37,685 nt of DNA from an uncultured Chloroflexota bacterium (GTDB lineage: Bacteria; Chloroflexota; Limnocylindria; Limnocylindrales; CSP1-4). The notes beneath the pieces are model-generated. The model made no database searches, was not told the DNA's origin, and worked only from the letters and a program-made list of their open reading frames with translations. The number at the start of each line of letters is the position of its first letter. The stretch's first letter is position 1. Below are positions 6,326-37,685 of the stretch, in pieces. Location of the stretch: the NCBI GenBank assembly GCA_903925955.1, contig CAIYHO010000196.1, positions 1-37,685 of the forward strand, written 5' to 3'. The position numbers and the translations under genes were made by a program.

Positions 6326-8209
6326 GTGAAGAAGCTCATGTTGCTGATTGCAGCAGGCTCCCTTTGGCTGTTCCTTGCCGCAGTTCCTGTCTTTGCGGAT
6401 GGTGGACCCCATGTCGCGGCGAGCAACTCCGGCGCCAGTACCCTGACGTCTGATAGCTGCGCCGGTTGCCATCGGGCACACACCGCCAAGGGCGAGTACC
6501 TGATCAACCAGGCAACCGAAGAGGCCCTCTGCCTCGGCTGCCACGGCACCGCGGTCACCGGCGCCACCACGAGCGTTATGGACGGCGTCCAGTACTCGCT
6601 CACCGGTGGGCTCCGCGACGACACCACGATCCTCGGCGCCCTGCGCGGCGGCGGCTTCGACAACGCCCGTATCGGCGCAGTCGGCCGTCTCGACACAGGC
6701 ACCAACTACAAGACCAAGGTGACCGTCGCCGCCGCCGGCGACCCGGTCAGCTCGGCCCACATCGCGATGACCGAGAACGGCCTCACCAACCCCCACGTTG
6801 CGTGGGGCAACGGGGCCAACAACACGGGCGCCGGGCCCAGCGTTACGCTGAGCTGCGTCAACTGCCACAACCCGCATGGGAACGGGCAGTACCGCATCCT
6901 CAACCCGGTCCCGGCTCCCGTCGGCGTCACCAACCCGGTGCCGGTTGACATCGAGGTCGTGGACTACGCCGCCGACGTCATCTACACCAAGGTTGGCCAT
7001 CCGTTCCAGCAGGGCGACCTCGTCACCCTCGTGAACGCCGCTGGCACCACCACGGCGGACTACGTCGTGTGGGCTGCCCCCAACGGCATCACCCTCCAGC
7101 TCCAGACCATCGGGGTTGGGGCCGGGCTCGGCATGAACGCCGCAGCAGCCCTGGATCTGGTTTCGCTCACAACGCCCGCATTCGCGCCCGTCACCATCCG
7201 CCGAACCAGCGCCCCCGTCGCTGACTCCCCGGTTGGCACGCCAGATTCCCTCACTGGGATCTACCCGCTCAAGAACTACACCGTCATCCAGACCAAGGGC
7301 ACCCAGGCGGCGTCCTACAGCGGTCCGGCATGGGGTGGCTACACCTTCTTCGCCAGCCAGATCACCACTGGCAACACCACCGGCGACTACTGGCACCGCC
7401 AGGTCCCGTGGGACGCCTCGAGTGGCTCGACCCAGGACGGCCCGAACGGCATGCCCGGCACGGTCACCCTTACGGGCCAGGTCAACTTCAACCAGCAGAT
7501 CACGGCGTGGTGCTCCGGCTGCCACAGCCGGTACTTCGCCAACCAGAACAAGAACCCCGGCCTCGAGCAGGGCTCTTCGACGTTCCTTGATCGCACCATC
7601 GACTCGGCTGCTACGACGACGATCACGATCAGCACGGTCAACCCCGCCGGCGGCAGCGCCCTGACGAGCAGCGGCTTCAACCTTGGTGATGTCGTGGATC
7701 TGGCCGGCATGACGCCTGCCGTGGACAACGGCTACGTCGTGTACGTGAGCGCCATGACCATGCGGGTATCCGCCACACTTGGTGGAGCGCCAATCTCGTT
7801 CAGCGCCTCCGGCGGTGTCGCCGCGCGCGTCGCGCCGGCAACGGCCTCGCAGTGGTTCTTCCCCCGCGAGACCAGCGCTAGCGTTGAGGACTCCATCTTC
7901 ACGTACCAGCACTCGACGCGGTCCAACCGGACCTGCAACGTGTGCCACGTGGCACATGGTTCCAACGCAGACATGACCGGCACGTTCTCGGCCAACTACA
8001 CGCGGCCCGACGGCGTCGCCACCAGCGACAGCCGCCTGCTCAAGATCGACAACCGTGGCACGTGCCAGGGCTGCCACGATCCCACGAGCACGTGGGCCAC
8101 CGCGAACGCGACCGGCGCCTACCAGGGGGCAACCTCTGGCATCACCGGCGGCTCGTGGAGCGGCGCAACCCCGCCGATCAACACCGGCGGCACCCCCGTC
8201 ACCCCGTAA
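6326..8209 (+). CDS. Exported hexaheme c-type cytochrome with two inserted beta-domains
   Basis: A 627-residue secreted cytochrome. The signal peptide is MKKLMLLIAAGSLWLFLAAV with cleavage near 24. Six CXXCH haem sites have first Cys at 45, 69, 177, 396, 537 and 580; CAGCHRAHTAKG and CVNCHNPHGNG are typical of the doubled-CXXCH family. It is a paralogue of the next gene: the haem-site order and flanking sequences match one for one. Relative to that paralogue it carries two extra segments, about residues 203-298 and 420-508, which resemble each other (QQGDLVTLV and NLGDVVDLAG, each followed by a YVV strand). They look like inserted small beta-domains. All haem attachment would occur outside the membrane, using the maturation genes at 13606-17561. 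A role as an electron wire between membrane and cell surface is inferred. Confidence 0.93.
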   Translation: MKKLMLLIAAGSLWLFLAAVPVFADGGPHVAASNSGASTLTSDSCAGCHRAHTAKGEYLINQATEEALCLGCHGTAVTGATTSVMDGVQYSLTGGLRDDTTILGALRGGGFDNARIGAVGRLDTGTNYKTKVTVAAAGDPVSSAHIAMTENGLTNPHVAWGNGANNTGAGPSVTLSCVNCHNPHGNGQYRILNPVPAPVGVTNPVPVDIEVVDYAADVIYTKVGHPFQQGDLVTLVNAAGTTTADYVVWAAPNGITLQLQTIGVGAGLGMNAAAALDLVSLTTPAFAPVTIRRTSAPVADSPVGTPDSLTGIYPLKNYTVIQTKGTQAASYSGPAWGGYTFFASQITTGNTTGDYWHRQVPWDASSGSTQDGPNGMPGTVTLTGQVNFNQQITAWCSGCHSRYFANQNKNPGLEQGSSTFLDRTIDSAATTTITISTVNPAGGSALTSSGFNLGDVVDLAGMTPAVDNGYVVYVSAMTMRVSATLGGAPISFSASGGVAARVAPATASQWFFPRETSASVEDSIFTYQHSTRSNRTCNVCHVAHGSNADMTGTFSANYTRPDGVATSDSRLLKIDNRGTCQGCHDPTSTWATANATGAYQGATSGITGGSWSGATPPINTGGTPVTP

Positions 8210-8224
8210 CCTAGACCCCGTAGC

Positions 8225-8257
8225 GTGGTGGCCGGCGGCGAGCGCCCCGCCCACCAC
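8225..8257 (+). other. Hairpin between the two hexaheme genes
   Basis: GTGGTGG (8225-8231) pairs perfectly with CCACCAC (8251-8257) in the 106-base gap between the paralogous cytochrome genes. A C-rich run follows rather than T, so it may be an intercistronic processing or stability element or a weak terminator. Confidence 0.4.
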
Positions 8258-8315
8258 ACCCCCCCCCATCGCATTTCGGCCAAGAGCCGCCAACGCCGTC
8301 CCAGGAGCGAATGAA

Positions 8316-9614
8316 ATGGTCCGAACCGTTGCCTGTAGCGCCGCACTCCGGCTGGGCCTCGGCGTCGCCACGTTCGCGGGCGTCTGGCTTCTCCTTGCCG
8401 CAATGCCGGTCCTCGCGGACGGCGGCCCCCACCAGGCGGGCCAGAACTCGGGTCTCGCCACGCTCACGTCTGACACCTGTTCGGGTTGTCACCGAGCGCA
8501 CACGGCGCAGGGCCCATACCTCATCGGTACCGCCGCCGAGGAGGAGCTCTGCTTGAGTTGCCACGGTGACGCGAGCACGGGCGCCACCACAAACGTCGAG
8601 GACGGGGTCCAGTACGCCGTGGGGACTGCACAGGTCCGCGGCGAGGCACCCGCGGTTGGCATGCTGCGCTCCGGCGGCTTTGTCAACGCCAGCATCGACT
8701 CGGCTCACTCAAGCCGCATCTCGTATCCGTACTTTGATCCGAACACCGGCGACTACCTCACAAGCTTCTCGTCAAAGGTTGGCGTGCTCGCCGCACCGGC
8801 GCCCGTGACGTCCGCGCACCTTGACCTTGACGGCCCGGGCGGCGTGATCAGTCACGGCAAGGCTTGGGGCAACGGAGCAATCGGCAGCGGTGCCGGTCCG
8901 GTGGTCAGCCTTGGCTGCACGGGTTGCCATAACCCGCACGGCAACGGCCAGTACCGGATCCTCAACAGGATCCCCGTTGCGGGCGGCGCATCGTTCGTGA
9001 ATTCCCCAGATGAGACCCTGGTCACGGATCTGCCGGTCCCTGACGGCGCCGGCAACCTCGGCACCCGCAACTACACCATCAAGAACGGGGTGACGGTAGA
9101 CGATGTGACCGGCGGCCCCACGGACGGCGACTACTGGCGCAAGTTCATCCCCTGGAACACTGTTCCCCAGTGGGATGGCAGTGGCGCATCGGACGTCATG
9201 GCGGCCGGCGGTCATGAGGGCGACGTCCCCATGTACGTGCCCGGCGGCACCATCCTCGAGTATTTCGAAACCCAGATCAGTGCGTGGTGCAGCTCATGCC
9301 ACACCCGCTACCTCGTGAGCACAAACGGCCCGACCGCCAACAGCGGCGACGCTATCTTCACCTACCGCCACGTCACCACGGTCGTTGCATGCACCCAGTG
9401 CCACGTTGCCCATGGGAGCAACGCAGCGATGCCGGGCACCTACTCCGGCCCGATGACCCTCCCGGACGGCGGCGCAGCAACCTCTGTCACGGCCGGATCG
9501 GTCACCACATACCTCAACAGCAAGCTGCTGAAGCTTGACAACCGTGGCACCTGCCAGGCCTGCCACGACCCGACGGGCACGATCCCGTTCGACGGCGCAA
9601 CCATCAGCCATTGA
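8316..9614 (+). CDS. Exported hexaheme c-type cytochrome (compact paralogue)
   Basis: A 432-residue secreted cytochrome with a signal peptide (hydrophobic core about 13-30, ending near PVLADGGPH). Six CXXCH sites have first Cys at 55, 79, 201, 325, 359 and 413. AGGAG at 8303-8307 lies 8 bases before ATG 8316; the ATG at 8311 is in another frame. The haem spacing and the surrounding phrases (GGPH, CSGCHRAHTAQG, CHNPHGNGQYRILN, CHVAHGSN, LDNRGTCQACHDPT) match the preceding gene, so the pair arose by tandem duplication. This copy lacks the two inserted beta-domains. Several extra His residues could serve as distal haem ligands. It has no membrane anchor besides the signal peptide and is probably released or assembled at the cell surface. 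Confidence 0.93.
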   Translation: MVRTVACSAALRLGLGVATFAGVWLLLAAMPVLADGGPHQAGQNSGLATLTSDTCSGCHRAHTAQGPYLIGTAAEEELCLSCHGDASTGATTNVEDGVQYAVGTAQVRGEAPAVGMLRSGGFVNASIDSAHSSRISYPYFDPNTGDYLTSFSSKVGVLAAPAPVTSAHLDLDGPGGVISHGKAWGNGAIGSGAGPVVSLGCTGCHNPHGNGQYRILNRIPVAGGASFVNSPDETLVTDLPVPDGAGNLGTRNYTIKNGVTVDDVTGGPTDGDYWRKFIPWNTVPQWDGSGASDVMAAGGHEGDVPMYVPGGTILEYFETQISAWCSSCHTRYLVSTNGPTANSGDAIFTYRHVTTVVACTQCHVAHGSNAAMPGTYSGPMTLPDGGAATSVTAGSVTTYLNSKLLKLDNRGTCQACHDPTGTIPFDGATISH

Positions 9615-25508: not shown

Positions 25509-26384
25509 CTAGTCCAGCACGCCAGCCAGCGAGCCGCGCAAGAGCGCCCGCTGCAGCACGACGAAGATGACCACAACCGGCAGCGCCATCAGCAACCCGT
25601 GCGCGGCCGTGAGCCCCCACGTTGGCCCCTGGTAGCCCGTGCCAACCTCTGCCATCACCATCGCCAGCGTCACGTTCCGGCCGGAGTCCACAAACATCCA
25701 AGCAAGCGCGAACTCGGTGAAGCCCAGCAGGAACGCCACGAGTGCCGCCACCAGGATCGATGGCGTCGCCAGCGGCAGGCTGATCCGCCGGAAGGCAGTG
25801 AACCGCGAGGCGCCGTCCACAGACGCGGCGTCCTCAAGCTCGGTGGGCACGGCTCGGAAGGCGGCCCGCATCAGCCACAGGCAGAGCGGCATCGCAAACG
25901 AGCCGTAGAGCAGCGCCAGCGCCAGCGTGGAGTCGCGCAGGCCAAACTCGGCCAGGGCCGGGATCATCCGCTCAAGCGTGATGAACAGCATGAACAGCGG
26001 CACGGCCAGCGCGATGGGCGGCAGGAACGCGCCCGCCAGCACCAGCACAAGGCCTGCCTGGCGCCCTGCAAACCGCAGGCGGGCGAAGGCGTAGGCCATG
26101 GACGCCCCGAGGATCACCGCGGCCAGCGCCGACGACCCGGCCACCAGCAGGCTGTTGCCCAGCACGCCGAGGTAGTTGAGCTCGTGGCCCGGGCGGTTGA
26201 GCACGGTGGCAAACCGGTCCAGCGTGGGCGCCACCGGCAGCGGGTGGAAGCCCTCCGGATAGCCCGTGGTGGAGCCGTCGGTGGCGACAACCAGCAGCAC
26301 CCACACCGGCAGAAGCACAAACAGGCCGACGGCCAGCAGGAACAGCTGTCGTCCCAGTTGTCCGCGGATGGAGAGTTGCAGCAT
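25509..26384 (-). CDS. Sugar-type ABC transporter permease (MalG family)
   Basis: A 291-residue permease with six predicted transmembrane segments. The cytoplasmic EAA loop, which docks on the ATPase, reads ELEDAASVDGASRFTAFRR followed by ISLPLATPS. The N-terminal segment and the long outer loop with GYPEGFHPLPV match carbohydrate uptake (CUT1) inner-membrane subunits. It starts 9 bases after the MalF-like fusion gene, so the two form the transmembrane pair. Neither a substrate-binding protein nor an ATPase gene is in the window; a shared ATPase (MsiK-like) encoded elsewhere is common for such systems. The substrate is unknown. Confidence 0.93.
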   Translation of the reverse strand: MLQLSIRGQLGRQLFLLAVGLFVLLPVWVLLVVATDGSTTGYPEGFHPLPVAPTLDRFATVLNRPGHELNYLGVLGNSLLVAGSSALAAVILGASMAYAFARLRFAGRQAGLVLVLAGAFLPPIALAVPLFMLFITLERMIPALAEFGLRDSTLALALLYGSFAMPLCLWLMRAAFRAVPTELEDAASVDGASRFTAFRRISLPLATPSILVAALVAFLLGFTEFALAWMFVDSGRNVTLAMVMAEVGTGYQGPTWGLTAAHGLLMALPVVVIFVVLQRALLRGSLAGVLD

Positions 26385-26393
26385 TGCCGTCCC

Positions 26394-28616
26394 CTACGCC
26401 AGCGCCACGCGCTCGGCGTGCGAGCGCCAGTGGAGGAACCACGCGACGATCGCCATCAGGGCCACCATCGTGATCATGTTGATCGCCGCGCTGACCGCCA
26501 TGAGGCCAATCCCGCCCGATGTGGTGCTGAACACAAAGAACGAGAACGTGGACAGGGTGGTGGTGGCGTCCGACGGCCCAAGCACGTAGAAGAGGTAGAA
26601 CTGGTTGAACGCGGTCACGGCGCGGACCACAAACGCCGCACCCAGCAGGGGCAGGAGCATCGGCAGGGTGACGCCGGCAAACCTGCGCCAGGCGCCGGCC
26701 CCGTCAATCTGCGCAGCCTCGGCCACAGCCCTCGGGATGGTTCGCATCCCGGCCGTCGCCACAAGCATCCACAGCGGCCAGCCCATCCAGGTGCTCGCGA
26801 CCAGCAGCACCATCAGCGACAGCTCCGGGCTGGCGCTCCACGGGAAGGGATGGCCAAGGGCTTGGGCGATCATCCCCTGCTGCGGGTGAAAGACGTCCCG
26901 CCAGGCCACGGCCGCCACGACCTCCGGGATGGCCCACGGCAGGATGAACAGCGTCCTCCAGAGATTCGCCATGCGGACCCCGGGCCGCTCCAGCACCGCG
27001 GCCACCGTGATGCCCAGACCGGCCTGCAGCCCCACCGACAGCACCATCCACACCACCGAGAACGCGATGTAGGAGGCGCTGGTGTTGCCGCCCAGCCAGA
27101 AGCCCTGCTGGAACCCATTGAGCAGGTCTGCCCCCACGTAGTGGACATCGGGCGCGGCTTGGCGAATGTCAAAGGGGACCGCCGGGATCTGGCCAGCGAG
27201 ACCGCCGATGGCTTCGCGAAGGATGCCGCCGCGGAGGCCGTCCTTGAGCGAGTTGAGCCTGACGTCGGTGAGCGACATCAGGAACTCGTAGGCAATGGGG
27301 ATCACGGCAAGGATCGTGAGCACCACGAAGCCGGGCGCCAGCCAAGGGGCAGCACCTCGCAGGTTGCGGAGGCTGCGCCGCAGACCACCGCCACGGGCGC
27401 CACGCGCTGCGGCCGCGGGGGCTTCCTGGCGAAGCCGGGCAGCGACGGCGCCAAGGATGCCCCAGGCCCGGCTGCGCACCGGCGCGAGCACACGGCCGAG
27501 GCCAAGGCCCGCGCTCAGCGACAGCGGGATGGACACCGTGAGCACGTACTGCGGCCACTTGGTGGGCCAGACGATGAGGAACGCAAAGCCAATCAGGAAC
27601 CAGAGGGCGAACAGCCGGTAGCGCCGCCACAGCTGCGAAGCGCCGAGGGCCCCGAGCAGCGTGATGGGCAGGTCAGCCGTGAGCAGGAACGTCCCCGCCT
27701 CGTGCCACGGGACCGACCCCATCAGCCACACAAGCGGCTGCCACATGGGCCAACCGGTGTCCTGCACCGCGGCGCTGGTGGCATAGCCGCCGTGGTAGGC
27801 GATTGACGACGCCAGCCGCCCGATGGGATCCGGCCACAGGTAGGGGTTTGCCGCCAGAAACACCGCAAACCCCAGCGCCAGCCAGCCCGCCACCGGCAGG
27901 AGCCAGATAGCGAGGCCCCGCGGCCGAAGGCGGTGGCGGTTGTCGCTTGCCCGGTCGCGCGTGGACCAGAGCAGATCGGCGGCAATGGCCAGCCCGGCCA
28001 CGCCATACAGGTATTTGCCGGCGCACGCCAATCCAAACGCAACGGCTGCCGCCGCCAGCCATGCGCGCCGCGGGGTGCTGCCGGTGACGCCGCGTCGTGC
28101 GCGCGTGGCGGCGCCCACCGCCAGCAGCGCCAGCAAGGCCGGCACCGCCTCGAGCATCACCTGGCTTGAGTACTTGATGGTCCAGGTGTGCAGGGCGAGC
28201 ACCAGCCCGCCCAGTGGCGAGAAGAGCGCCAGCACCAGTGCCGCCGCCGCTCCAAACCCGGCTTGGGCTGTTCGCCCCGCCAGCACCATGTCCGGCGGCA
28301 AGTCCTTGGCCTGGCCCGCGGTAGTGGGCCGGTCCGGGATCTCCGCGGCCGGCGGCACGGTCAGCAGCGCAAGCCCGGTGATGATCTTGGACAGCGGCGG
28401 ATGCTCCGGCCGGTAGTTGTCCCGCAGGAAGACCCCGGGATCGCCAGCCTGAATGCCCACGGCGTACTGCTGGCCGGCGCGGAGGTAGTCGTCCTCGTCA
28501 AAGTCAACCGGGAGCAGGTTGACCGCAAGCAGGCGCGCGGAGAGCGCCACCACACCCACCGTCAGCACGGCTGCGGTGTTCACCACCCACGACCAGCGGA
28601 ACCTGCGCCCTCCCAC
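26394..28616 (-). CDS. GT-C glycosyltransferase-like domain fused to a MalF-family ABC permease
   Basis: A 740-residue membrane protein in one uninterrupted frame. Residues 1-385 resemble the GT39/PMT-like GT-C family: a first helix, an extracytoplasmic acidic loop PVDFDEDDYLRAGQQYA (Asp38-Asp43), RPEHPPLSK (about 69-77) and about nine further helices. An Ala/Arg/Gly-rich linker (391-422) leads to a six-helix ABC permease (423-740) with the EAA loop IPRAVAEAAQIDGAGAWRRF and LP. The linker contains no ATG, GTG or TTG codon; the nearest in-frame GTGs (about 376-381) lack a ribosome site. This argues against two overlapping genes. The start is GTG 28616 with weak upstream signal. It pairs with the MalG-like gene. 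Coupling of glycan transfer and sugar transport is suggested but unproven. Confidence 0.88.
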   Translation of the reverse strand: MGGRRFRWSWVVNTAAVLTVGVVALSARLLAVNLLPVDFDEDDYLRAGQQYAVGIQAGDPGVFLRDNYRPEHPPLSKIITGLALLTVPPAAEIPDRPTTAGQAKDLPPDMVLAGRTAQAGFGAAAALVLALFSPLGGLVLALHTWTIKYSSQVMLEAVPALLALLAVGAATRARRGVTGSTPRRAWLAAAAVAFGLACAGKYLYGVAGLAIAADLLWSTRDRASDNRHRLRPRGLAIWLLPVAGWLALGFAVFLAANPYLWPDPIGRLASSIAYHGGYATSAAVQDTGWPMWQPLVWLMGSVPWHEAGTFLLTADLPITLLGALGASQLWRRYRLFALWFLIGFAFLIVWPTKWPQYVLTVSIPLSLSAGLGLGRVLAPVRSRAWGILGAVAARLRQEAPAAAARGARGGGLRRSLRNLRGAAPWLAPGFVVLTILAVIPIAYEFLMSLTDVRLNSLKDGLRGGILREAIGGLAGQIPAVPFDIRQAAPDVHYVGADLLNGFQQGFWLGGNTSASYIAFSVVWMVLSVGLQAGLGITVAAVLERPGVRMANLWRTLFILPWAIPEVVAAVAWRDVFHPQQGMIAQALGHPFPWSASPELSLMVLLVASTWMGWPLWMLVATAGMRTIPRAVAEAAQIDGAGAWRRFAGVTLPMLLPLLGAAFVVRAVTAFNQFYLFYVLGPSDATTTLSTFSFFVFSTTSGGIGLMAVSAAINMITMVALMAIVAWFLHWRSHAERVALA

Positions 28617-32889: not shown

Positions 32890-35800
32890 ATGGCGGTCAC
32901 GCCCGGACGCGTCGAGGACGGCGGACGGCCGTCGGTACCCCAGGCAACGCCCGCCAGCGGTGGCCGCCCACGTCGGCGCTCCACGGTGGTGTCCCGATTC
33001 TGGGCGTTTGCCATGACGGCCCTGATCGTGCTCTCGGTTGCGCCTGCGCCAAACGTGATCGCCATGTCCTCGGCGCCCTCGCATGCGGCCACGACGCCCG
33101 TCACGCCGGGCGCCCCCGACTGCAGCGATCCCGTGAACGCCATGGACCCAGAGTGCGCGCCGCCGTCTGACGACCCGTGCTCCATCGACCCGAACTCCTA
33201 CGAGTGCACGGGCGACCCCTGCTCCCTCGACTCCACCGCTCCCGGCTGTGCCGACGACCCCTGCACCATCGACCCGAACTCCTACGAGTGCACGGGCGAC
33301 CCCTGCTCCCTCGACTCCACCGCTCCCGGCTGTGCCGACGACCCCTGCACCATCGACCCCAGCTCCTGCGGCGGCGTGGACCCCACGCCCATCCCCACTG
33401 ACACGTGCGAGGCAAACCCGTTCTTCTGTCCCAACGGCGCACCGGTTCCCTACCCGGACTACTACTACCCGGACTACGGCGCGACGCTGACCGTGGACGC
33501 CGCCGGAGGCGTCTTGGCCAACGACACGGACCCTGAGGGCGACACGCTCGCCACGTCCGTCGGCACGTCTGATGGGTGCGCCGGCCTTGCGTTGGCGAGC
33601 GACGGCTCCTTCACGTTCACGCCGCCTGAGGCGACGTGGGGGCAGCTGCTCTCGTGCGACTACTGGGTCAGCGACGGCTACAACGAACCGGTGCAGGGCT
33701 GGATGAACTTCTCGGTCACGGCTCTCGCCCTGACAGCGCCAACCCAGACCATCACCGCAGGCCTGGGCATCACGCTTGTCGTGGGCGACTCGACGAAGGG
33801 GCTCCTCACCGCCGTGACCGGTGGCACCTCCCCGTACACGTTTGACCTCGTGGACAGCGACAAGATCGCCGTGGCCGGCCTCGGCAGGCTCACGGTGAAC
33901 ACGGACGGCACCTACACCCTCACGCCCGGGACCACCACCGGCACGGCCGACACCGACTACTGCATCCGCGACGCGGACAACGCTCAGGCCTGCGGCACGC
34001 TCACCGTGACCGTTGTGGCGCTGCCGCTGGTTTATGTGTCCAACGCGACGCACGCCGCGGGCTCGCCCGCCTCCTGCCTCAACCCGGACTTCGCCACCAT
34101 CACGGACGCGGTGGCCGCGGCGAACACCGCCGACCGCAGCACGATCATCCACGTCTGCGAAGGCGTCTGGCGCGAGCCGGAGCTTGTTGTCACAGCCCCC
34201 GGCGTCACGATCGAGGGCGACGCCCAGGACAAGACCATCCTTGACGGCCAGTTGGCCGTCGGCGACGCCTCCAGCGGCCACCGGGTCATCAGCGTCACAT
34301 CCGCAAGCAGCTTCGTGCTGCGCAACCTCGCCATCCGCAACGGCGACGCGCATGCGTTGGCATCGGGTGGGGCGATCAGCGTCGTGGGCGCGCTGGCCGT
34401 CACGGGTGTCACGTTCACCAGCAACCGCGGGTACAACGGCGGGGCAATCAGCGCCGCTGGGCCAGCAACCACCATCACCGACAGCACCTTCATCGGCAAC
34501 TCCGCAACCTCTCTGGGCGGCGCCATGTACGCCAGCCGCGCCATCGAGATCACCGGTTCCTCGTTCAGCGGCAACACCGCCAGCGACGGCGGCGCGGTCG
34601 CGGCCGCGGCAGCCTCCCTCTATGACGACAACGGGCTCACCATCAGCGGCAGCCTGTTCGTCGGGAACACGGTGACCGGCAGCGGCGGCGCGGTCAACGC
34701 GGAGTCGTCCCTGACCATCACCGGCAGCACCTTCACCGACAACGCCGCGGACACCCACGGCGGCGCGATCTCCTCAACCGCCGCCCTGAATGTCGCCGGC
34801 TCCACCCTGAGCGACAACACCGCGGACACCGACGGCGGCGCTGTGTACGGAGCCGACAGCATCCGCATCACCGCCAGCACCCTGAGCGACAACACCGCGA
34901 CGTACGGCGGCGCGATCTACCTGGCGGACACCGGGAGCGCGGTCTTCGCCCAGCGCAGCACCGTTGCCGGCAACGCAACCCGCCTTGGCGCCGCCGTTGA
35001 CGCGGGCCTGAACGTCGTGCTTGCGTTTGCCACGTCCTTCATTGGCAACACCACCGCTGACCCGGACGGCCAGGGCCTTGCGGCCGCAATTGCCGCAGGC
35101 GGTTTCGCGTCCATCTCCGGCCTCTACGCCGGCAACGTCAACCTGCATGCGTCCACCGACATCACCTGCCAGGTGTCCGGCGAGAGCATGGACCTTGGCG
35201 GCAACGCCGCCGCGGACAGCTCCTGCGGGTTCACCGATCCCACCTCGCACCAGGGCATGCCCCTTGCCGCGATGCGGCTGGGCACGCTCGCCAAGGTGAA
35301 CCCCGCTGACGCAACCGCCGTTGTCGCGATGACCGGGTCCAGCGCGCTGATGGGCCTTGGACGCTGCATCACCATCGACGACCCGTTGTGGATGGACAGC
35401 CTGGACCTTGACCAGCGCGGGACCACCCGCCCCACCGGCGATGCGTGCGAGCCCGGCGCCTACGAGTTTGTCGGGACCGTGGTTGCCCCGCCGGTTGGCG
35501 TGGAGGACAACTACGACGCCACGAAGGACCAGGTCCTGACGGTTGATGCCGCCCACGGCGTTCTGGCCAACGACACCTACACCGGCTCCGAAACGCTCAC
35601 TGCCACCCTGCTGAGCACGGCCGGCATGGGCAGCACGATTGACCTTGCGGCCGACGGCTCCTTCACGTACACGCCCACGGCGGGCCAGACGTACTCCGAC
35701 TGGTTCACCTACACCGTCTCGGACGGCGCGCGCAGCTCCACTGCCACGATCAACCTGAGCGTGGTCGAGGGGCCCGTCTGCACGGAGGGCCAGCTCGTCC

Positions 35801-37685
35801 TCTTCGAGGGCACCGTCTTCACCACTGAATCGCTCGTCGGCATGTGCTGGGATCCCGCTGACCCGTCCCCGGCGGACAGCAAGGTGCCATTGACATGGGC
35901 GCTCGTGGACGCGGCTGCCCACGGGACCGCCACCATCAGCTTGGCGGGCATCCTCGCCTACACGCCCGCCACGGACTTCCTGGGCGTGGACACCCTCACG
36001 CTGCACGTCACCACGGCCGCCGGCCGGGTGAGCGCCACCACCTCGGTCACGATCCAAGTGGTGGGCAACCAGCCCACCTGCTCCGGCGACACCCAGACCG
36101 TCGCGTCGGGTTCCGCCCTCGAAGGCACCGTGGCCGGCCTCTGCACCGAGCCGCACAGCTTCGCCATGACCTACGGCGTGGACAGCGATCCCTCGCACGG
36201 CACCGTGGCGCTCAACGAGGACGGGACCTACACCTACACGCCCGAGGAGGGCTACACCGGCGACGACAGCTTTGACTTCTACGCCCAGGCGGAGAACTGC
36301 AGCGGACGCATCGCGACCGTGTCGATCACGGTCACGGATGCCAGCCCCGCGGCGCCCTCCCTGACCGCGACGCCGGACGGCGATCACGTCAGCGTTGAGT
36401 GGGCGGCCGGCGATTCCAGTGCGCTCGACCAGTACACCCTTGAGGTCTCCACCGACGGCGGTGACACCTGGGGTGTTGTCCAGAACGTCACCGACGGCGC
36501 CACCACCTGGTCGTACGACGCGGGTTACAACACGGCCGCCCAGTTCCGCATCAAGGCGCACGGCGTCTCGCCGGCGCTCTGGAGCGACTGGTCCAACACC
36601 GCCTCAGTGGCGACGCTCCCGCAACCCACGATCTCGTCCATGTCGGGCGGGTCCTTCTCTGTTTTGCTGTCGTGGGTGCTGCCCGACACCATCGCGTCTG
36701 ACGCGGCCGTCACAGGCTGGCAGGTCACGTGGTGGACCGACGCGCTCCCCGAGACCGTGGTTGACCTTGAGGCCACCGCCGCCAGCACGACCATCAGCAG
36801 CCTGCCCGCCGGGGCCACCGTCTACACCACCGTCCGTGCCGTGTACGGCACCACCAACGGTCCGTGGTCCGGCATGTCCTCCGCGGCCACAGACTCGCCG
36901 GCGCCAACCGTGGCCCCGACACCTTCGCCCACACCTGTCCCCGCCCCGGTCGCCGGCTTCGGCATCAGCGGCGGCGAGGGCGAGGCGCCGTTCGGTGTGG
37001 ACTTCACCGACCAGTCCACCGGCGACGTGTCGTCCTGGGCCTGGGACTTCGACGACGGCTCGTCGTCCACGGACCAGAGCCCCTCGCACACGTACCTCAC
37101 CCAGGGCGACTTCACAGCCACCCTGACCGTCAGTGGCCCCGGCGGCACCGACTTCACCACGCGCTCCATCAAGGTTACCGAGCCCGCCCCGTCGCCGAGC
37201 CCGACGGACTCGCCCGCCCCGACGGACTCGCCGACGCCCAACACCAAGCCCGTCACCGTGACCGACGACTACCCGATGACGGCCGACACGGTCCTCACCG
37301 TCGACGCCGCCAGCGGCGTGCTGGCCAACGACACCGACGCCGACAGCGACCCGCTCACCGCCCACGTCGTCCCGGCGTTTGTCTCCGGGCCGTTCCATGG
37401 CACGTTGTCCGTGAGTGCGGACGGCAGTTTCACGTACACACCCGACGCCGGGTACTCCGGCGACGACTACTTCGCCTACGCGGCCAACGACGGCCACGAG
37501 GACGGCAACTTCGTCACCAACACCATCACCATCTCGCCCGTAGCGACACCCAGCCCGACGCCCGACCCCACGCCGTCGCCGACCGTGGCCCCCACGCCGT
37601 CGCCCACGCCCGTCCCCGCACCCGTCGCCGGCTTCGGCATCAGCGGCGGCCAGGGCGAGGCGCCCTTCACGGTGGACTTCACCGA
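32890..37685 (+). CDS. Giant modular surface protein (3' end beyond the window)
   Basis: An open frame of about 1,598 residues with no stop before the window edge. GAGGGAG 7 bases upstream fixes ATG 32890. Modules in order: an Arg-rich signal sequence (about 1-68), a Cys-rich region with 28-residue repeats (77-184), a cadherin-like domain with VLANDTDPEGD (about 197-277), an Ig-like domain, a right-handed beta-helix of Pmp/polymorphic type with repeated GGAI and NTA turns (about 381-860), three further cadherin/VCBS-like domains, two fibronectin-III-like domains (about 1152-1335), a Pro/Thr linker, a PKD domain with WAWDFDDGSSS, another VLANDTDADSD domain and the start of a second PKD. This architecture suits adhesion, biofilm or a cell-surface filament. 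The anchor type lies outside the window. It is divergent from the RlpA-like gene. Confidence 0.9.
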   Translation, partial: MAVTPGRVEDGGRPSVPQATPASGGRPRRRSTVVSRFWAFAMTALIVLSVAPAPNVIAMSSAPSHAATTPVTPGAPDCSDPVNAMDPECAPPSDDPCSIDPNSYECTGDPCSLDSTAPGCADDPCTIDPNSYECTGDPCSLDSTAPGCADDPCTIDPSSCGGVDPTPIPTDTCEANPFFCPNGAPVPYPDYYYPDYGATLTVDAAGGVLANDTDPEGDTLATSVGTSDGCAGLALASDGSFTFTPPEATWGQLLSCDYWVSDGYNEPVQGWMNFSVTALALTAPTQTITAGLGITLVVGDSTKGLLTAVTGGTSPYTFDLVDSDKIAVAGLGRLTVNTDGTYTLTPGTTTGTADTDYCIRDADNAQACGTLTVTVVALPLVYVSNATHAAGSPASCLNPDFATITDAVAAANTADRSTIIHVCEGVWREPELVVTAPGVTIEGDAQDKTILDGQLAVGDASSGHRVISVTSASSFVLRNLAIRNGDAHALASGGAISVVGALAVTGVTFTSNRGYNGGAISAAGPATTITDSTFIGNSATSLGGAMYASRAIEITGSSFSGNTASDGGAVAAAAASLYDDNGLTISGSLFVGNTVTGSGGAVNAESSLTITGSTFTDNAADTHGGAISSTAALNVAGSTLSDNTADTDGGAVYGADSIRITASTLSDNTATYGGAIYLADTGSAVFAQRSTVAGNATRLGAAVDAGLNVVLAFATSFIGNTTADPDGQGLAAAIAAGGFASISGLYAGNVNLHASTDITCQVSGESMDLGGNAAADSSCGFTDPTSHQGMPLAAMRLGTLAKVNPADATAVVAMTGSSALMGLGRCITIDDPLWMDSLDLDQRGTTRPTGDACEPGAYEFVGTVVAPPVGVEDNYDATKDQVLTVDAAHGVLANDTYTGSETLTATLLSTAGMGSTIDLAADGSFTYTPTAGQTYSDWFTYTVSDGARSSTATINLSVVEGPVCTEGQLVLFEGTVFTTESLVGMCWDPADPSPADSKVPLTWALVDAAAHGTATISLAGILAYTPATDFLGVDTLTLHVTTAAGRVSATTSVTIQVVGNQPTCSGDTQTVASGSALEGTVAGLCTEPHSFAMTYGVDSDPSHGTVALNEDGTYTYTPEEGYTGDDSFDFYAQAENCSGRIATVSITVTDASPAAPSLTATPDGDHVSVEWAAGDSSALDQYTLEVSTDGGDTWGVVQNVTDGATTWSYDAGYNTAAQFRIKAHGVSPALWSDWSNTASVATLPQPTISSMSGGSFSVLLSWVLPDTIASDAAVTGWQVTWWTDALPETVVDLEATAASTTISSLPAGATVYTTVRAVYGTTNGPWSGMSSAATDSPAPTVAPTPSPTPVPAPVAGFGISGGEGEAPFGVDFTDQSTGDVSSWAWDFDDGSSSTDQSPSHTYLTQGDFTATLTVSGPGGTDFTTRSIKVTEPAPSPSPTDSPAPTDSPTPNTKPVTVTDDYPMTADTVLTVDAASGVLANDTDADSDPLTAHVVPAFVSGPFHGTLSVSADGSFTYTPDAGYSGDDYFAYAANDGHEDGNFVTNTITISPVATPSPTPDPTPSPTVAPTPSPTPVPAPVAGFGISGGQGEAPFTVDFT
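33190..33357 (+). repeat. Two identical 84-bp tandem repeats coding a Cys-rich unit
   Basis: Positions 33190-33273 and 33274-33357 are identical copies of an 84-base unit encoding 28 residues with four cysteines (NSYECTGDPC, then TAPGCADDPC). A partial unit (DDPCSID) precedes and a diverged one (SSCGG) follows. Identity at the DNA level implies recent duplication or gene conversion. Copy number may vary between strains. Confidence 0.92.
36907..37685 (+). repeat. 104-bp Pro/Thr-linker and PKD repeat, cut by the window edge
   Basis: 36907-37010 and 37582-37685 are near-identical and equal in length, coding a PTPSPTPVPAPVAGFGISGG linker and the first strand of a PKD domain. Between them lie the rest of PKD 1 and a cadherin-like module. 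The window ends within the second copy, so the array probably continues. Confidence 0.85.

Follow-up and report, generated by a model that had tools for sequence, protein, structure and literature searches.

A GT-C glycosyltransferase domain joined in one chain to a MalF-type sugar permease in Chloroflexota

Does a single gene of an uncultured Chloroflexota bacterium join a membrane glycosyltransferase (GT) to a sugar transporter, and what could the two halves do together? The gene lies in a window of 37,685 nucleotides, the whole stretch of DNA that was analysed. A sequence-only reading had described a domain with DFDEDD and PEHPPLSK motifs that runs in frame into a MalF-like permease through a linker free of ATG, GTG and TTG, and had proposed a single coupled machine. 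The gene, its linker and its partner are as follows.

26394..28616, minus strand: fused GT-C / MalF-type gene, a single ORF of 740 aa that aligns end to end in 20 full-length fusions (the window's included)
27357..27467, minus strand: basic linker, aa 384-420, predicted cytoplasmic, with low pLDDT at 400-416 and a positive-inside charge pattern
25509..26384, minus strand: MalG-type permease partner, a separate gene 9 bases downstream of the fusion, with Pfam BPD_transp_1 and MalG as best NCBIfam family

The reading frame is as described: 740 codons are open without interruption at 26394-28616 (-), and in-frame starts are absent from codons 380-431 (about 27479-27326). Start-free gaps of 47-59 codons are also found elsewhere in the same ORF, so the linker alone proves little, and the junction in relatives becomes the decisive check. 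A stop at that junction was looked for and none was seen; 19 further full-length relatives align across it, and identity to the window protein is 41-66%. Two genomes of the same genus (G001 and G010) encode a full-length, stop-free protein of 68% and 63% identity, and the genes after it (MalG, DUF2277 and LysA-like) are those also seen in the window. The GT-C domain and the MalF-type permease in one chain are a real fusion. In a window from a single draft genome, one might suspect that two genes were joined by an error of sequencing or assembly. The same open junction in independent genomes down to 41% identity, including the single-contig genomes G130 and G233, reduces its probability to a negligible level, and these relatives rule out an assembly error or a missed start between two genes.

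The N-terminal half carries the two motifs.

27462..28616, minus strand: GT-C glycosyltransferase domain, aa 1-385, about 10 predicted TM helices
28488..28505, minus strand: DFDEDD motif, aa 38-43, in the first extracytoplasmic loop, placed outside by the charge pattern
28386..28409, minus strand: PEHPPLSK motif, aa 70-77, aligned with VHPPLGK of yeast Pmt2

In the window protein, Pfam and NCBIfam detect the permease half and nothing of the GT half. A profile search of the PDB with the GT half gave yeast Pmt2 as its sole credible match, a weak one (E 0.003) over the HPPL motif; a transposase match in the same search was judged to be due to chance. Because the profile search yielded only this weak match, fold comparison was used. 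The AlphaFold model of the domain has a pLDDT of 92 and a pTM of 0.92, and comparison of this fold with the PDB gave GT-C enzymes as the only confident matches (probability 1.00, E up to 0.035): Pmt4, AglB, OST, ArnT, AftA, PglB and ALG9. As modelled, the N-terminal half has a GT-C fold. The protein O-mannosyltransferase (PMT) family is characterized by DE and HPPLxK motifs, and the DE and HPPL elements expected of GT39/PMT are matched by DFDEDD and PEHPPLSK, respectively. Residues D38, D40, E41 and D42 are unchanged in 26 fused and standalone relatives, as are E71, H72 and P73 in the fused and standalone members. Weak Pfam PMT matches occur in 6 of the 26 relatives (best E 3.6e-05).

The C-terminal half is supported as a MalF-type sugar permease.

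26394..27356, minus strand: MalF-type permease domain, aa 421-740, Pfam BPD_transp_1, like MalF (2r6g/3fh6) and SugA by sequence and fold
26679..26720, minus strand: EAA loop EAAQIDGAGAWRRF, aa 633-646, aligned with EASAMDGAGPFQNF of E. coli MalF

BPD_transp_1 is matched at aa 534-723 (E 7.7e-13, 49 bits against a cut-off of 26.4) and in 20 of 20 fusions, and the NCBIfam matches of the fused ORF are all permease families, with MalF the best. Profile and fold searches both lead to MalF and SugA, and a direct alignment to E. coli MalF also covers the EAA loop, which is the ATPase docking loop. Within it, A634, A635, D638, G639, A640 and F646 are unchanged in 20 fusions. A MalG gene directly follows the fusion in every locus where the sequence continues, often with an overlap of 8 bases.

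The GT part is predicted to have about ten helices and the permease part six. The linker region of the window protein (aa 376-423) has 10 K/R as opposed to 1 D/E, and K+R per 100 residues is 20.4 in the loops that we assigned to the cytoplasm from the predicted helices, as opposed to 6.1 in those assigned to the outside. This charge pattern places the linker on the cytoplasmic side of the membrane and the catalytic loop on the outer side. The model of the whole protein has a pLDDT of 81 and a pTM of 0.80, with low confidence in the linker at 400-416. Among relatives the linker varies in sequence and in length (25-50 aa).

The same two-domain order, sought in other genomes, recurs together with MalG in about 27 further genomes of Chloroflexota, including Limnocylindrales, Thermoflexales and Anaerolineales. 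A pattern-based scan of 84,980 species genomes, in which distant members may be missed, found 28 loci, all in Chloroflexota. GT and MalF form one ORF in most of them, and a separate MalG follows. Three loci depart from an intact sequence: in L072 a single in-frame stop falls within the GT half, away from the junction; in L084 the frame is broken close to the N-terminus; and the fusion in L092 is partly masked. Among 400 drawn Chloroflexota genomes, the GT is present in 29, and in about 10 of these 29 it is fused to MalF; the carriers include single-contig genomes such as the two named above. Judged from these comparisons, the fusion is ancient and has been kept across distant Chloroflexota. 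GT-only relatives occur in Limnocylindrus-type genomes (G019), and one locus (L090) has MalF only. At L090:7953-9794, this MalF without GT lies beside a MalG whose sequence is spread over two frames; the copy may be decaying. The GT tree is midpoint-rooted, has several weak forks and is compatible with either fused or neighbouring genes as the earlier state. Within it, the GT-only genes of Limnocylindrus type are nested inside the fused group, and this placement suggests that the permease half was lost later.

The surroundings of the fusion are those of maltodextrin utilization in many genomes. In 13 loci, some of them cut by contig ends, the fusion is found within or beside a maltodextrin cluster (binding protein, MalFG, GH13/GH57, ROK or LacI regulator). 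In Anaerolineae, the GT:MalF-MalG pair stands behind or beside a regulator, a binding protein, a canonical MalF and MalG and GH13 or GH57 enzymes. Two permease pairs are therefore encoded in these loci, and on the tree their canonical and fused MalF form separate groups. A second setting (L081 and L123-L125) places the pair next to two recurring genes, one of which is prmC-like by Pfam (L125). An ATPase gene is linked in L126 and a binding protein gene in many Anaerolineae loci; the window's fusion has neither beside it, nor an amylase gene. The window's genome has one MalK-type ATPase, unlinked to the fusion. It also has other binding proteins and a maltodextrin locus that is likewise unlinked and seems to be divided between two contigs. 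Among the maltodextrin loci, L069:1498-3891 and L092:3043-5463 encode binding proteins of about 800 aa that carry two SBP domains in tandem on one chain. At L074:5633-7912, a Peripla_BP_4 / SBP_bac_8 chimera lies directly upstream of the fusion.

In Chloroflexus-type genomes, the same GT is a separate gene that begins within a few bases after malG. In Chloroflexus aurantiacus (G238), it directly follows malG and carries a C-terminal regulator propeller, and related genomes are similar; in L132, L133 and L135, a beta-propeller of the two-component-regulator type takes the place of MalF. These GTs branch apart from the fusions on the GT tree. Thus, two architectures, the fused GT:MalF and the unfused GT after malG, tie this GT to maltose-type transporters, and a functional association of the two is well supported.

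What this association achieves can be proposed with some caution. The reading that we favour, though with a little less than even weight, is that a PMT-like GT is tethered at the site of maltodextrin uptake, where it glycosylates extracytoplasmic targets. The protein would be a bifunctional membrane subunit with a PMT-like GT-C domain, a basic linker and a MalF-type permease with its own MalG. Driven by the MalK-type ATPase of the cell, MalF and MalG would import an alpha-glucan-type sugar, and the GT domain would use a polyprenyl-phosphate sugar on the outer face. Sugar transfer and import would be co-located without chemical coupling. Candidate targets are exported parts of the same system (the binding protein or an amylase lipoprotein) or a nearby surface glycan. 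For the tethered enzyme count the conserved fusion, the GT-C fold with its unchanged motifs, the MalF fold with its EAA loop, the MalG gene that comes next, the maltodextrin surroundings, the unfused GT after malG in Chloroflexus-type genomes and the charge pattern. The MalK-type ATPase of the window's genome, which could serve such permeases, also counts for it. Against it count the absence of a binding protein, ATPase or amylase gene beside the fusion in the window and the GT-only lineages that keep the enzyme without the permease. The Ser/Thr/Pro-rich linkers of neighbouring binding proteins are not enriched (0.33 vs 0.34 in other lipoproteins of the loci), so binding proteins are not specifically supported as an O-glycosylation target; the value for GH13 lipoproteins is 0.58 (only 3 proteins).

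The coupling proposed in the sequence-only reading fares differently from its parts. The GT-C fold with intact motifs, the MalF-type permease and the recurrent order all stand. Each half, however, can exist alone, and for this reason direct coupling of the GT to the transporter is something we infer rather than observe; the chain may be a single machine for transfer and transport. In its specific form, the permease would move the substrate or product of the GT, for example by retrieving a sugar released by the enzyme or by supplying a lipid-linked donor. Both halves do lie in one chain, and loci with two permease pairs often encode a single binding protein; the GT domain may thus be the source of cargo for the fused pair. 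However, type I importers move solutes inwards, whereas a lipid-donor flippase would have to work in the opposite direction; what GT-C enzymes release is polyprenyl phosphate and not free sugar; and a binding protein gene adjoins the fusion in L071 and L074. Such coupling is improbable, and a similarly low probability attaches to a previously undescribed transporter class that unites a lipid-linked-sugar transferase and an ATP-driven sugar permease in one working unit, the GT making or trimming a glycan that passes directly to the MalF-MalG channel.

The fusion could instead be an accident of the operon, whereby two maltodextrin-operon genes fused early and harmlessly and the halves work independently, with only their stoichiometry fixed. 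The GT-only genomes and the MalF-only locus, the variable linker and the unfused neighbours in Chloroflexus would agree with this. It nevertheless seems less likely than the tethered enzyme, given that the fusion has stayed intact with MalG over many genera and genome contexts and that the tree fits one fusion with few later splits. A catalytically dead GT-C half that replaces the binding protein as a docking scaffold would explain why the window and several other loci lack an adjacent binding protein gene. It is very unlikely, as the acidic and HPPL positions are unchanged in fused and standalone members, as expected of an active enzyme.

Several known systems come close to the fusion. The protein O-mannosyltransferases (GT39: Pmt4, Pmt1-Pmt2; Pfam PMT and PMT_2) have in common with the GT half the GT-C fold, a DE in the first outer loop and an HPPLxK-type motif, and they include its best fold match (9i5k). 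In contrast, the GT half has only 385 aa, lacks a MIR domain and is fused to a permease, and the window protein has no Pfam PMT or PMT_2 match above the cut-off. ArnT, AglB/PglB and other GT-C enzymes share the fold and use polyprenyl-linked donors; they have no ABC permease fusion, and the large soluble domains of the ArnT and AglB/PglB types are missing from the GT half. The permease half shares the core helices, the EAA loop and the MalG partner with MalF/SugA and other CUT1-type sugar permeases, which, unlike the fusion, bear no N-terminal enzyme of about 10 helices. The Chloroflexus-type GT belongs to the same GT family and the same transporter neighbourhood, with a beta-propeller rather than MalF. 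Nothing relevant to a GT-MalF fusion was found in the open-licence papers searched, where a search for MalF maltose-contact residues likewise gave no paper, and the pairing is apparently undescribed, although built from known parts.

Chloroflexota, a large phylum that has been little studied, have a conserved fusion of enzyme and transporter, which predicts a PMT-like glycosyltransferase that works with alpha-glucan uptake. Because Chloroflexus aurantiacus, which is in culture, has the unfused GT within its malFG operon, the link is testable in a culturable relative. It also follows that genes annotated only as ABC permease can hide a second enzyme. Elsewhere in the window, a run of genes at 6326-9614 (+) encodes secreted proteins with CxxCH-type haem motifs in their N-termini. 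An open frame of at least 1566 aa at 32986-37683 (+), overlapped by several minus-strand ORFs, looks secreted and runs off the end of the contig.
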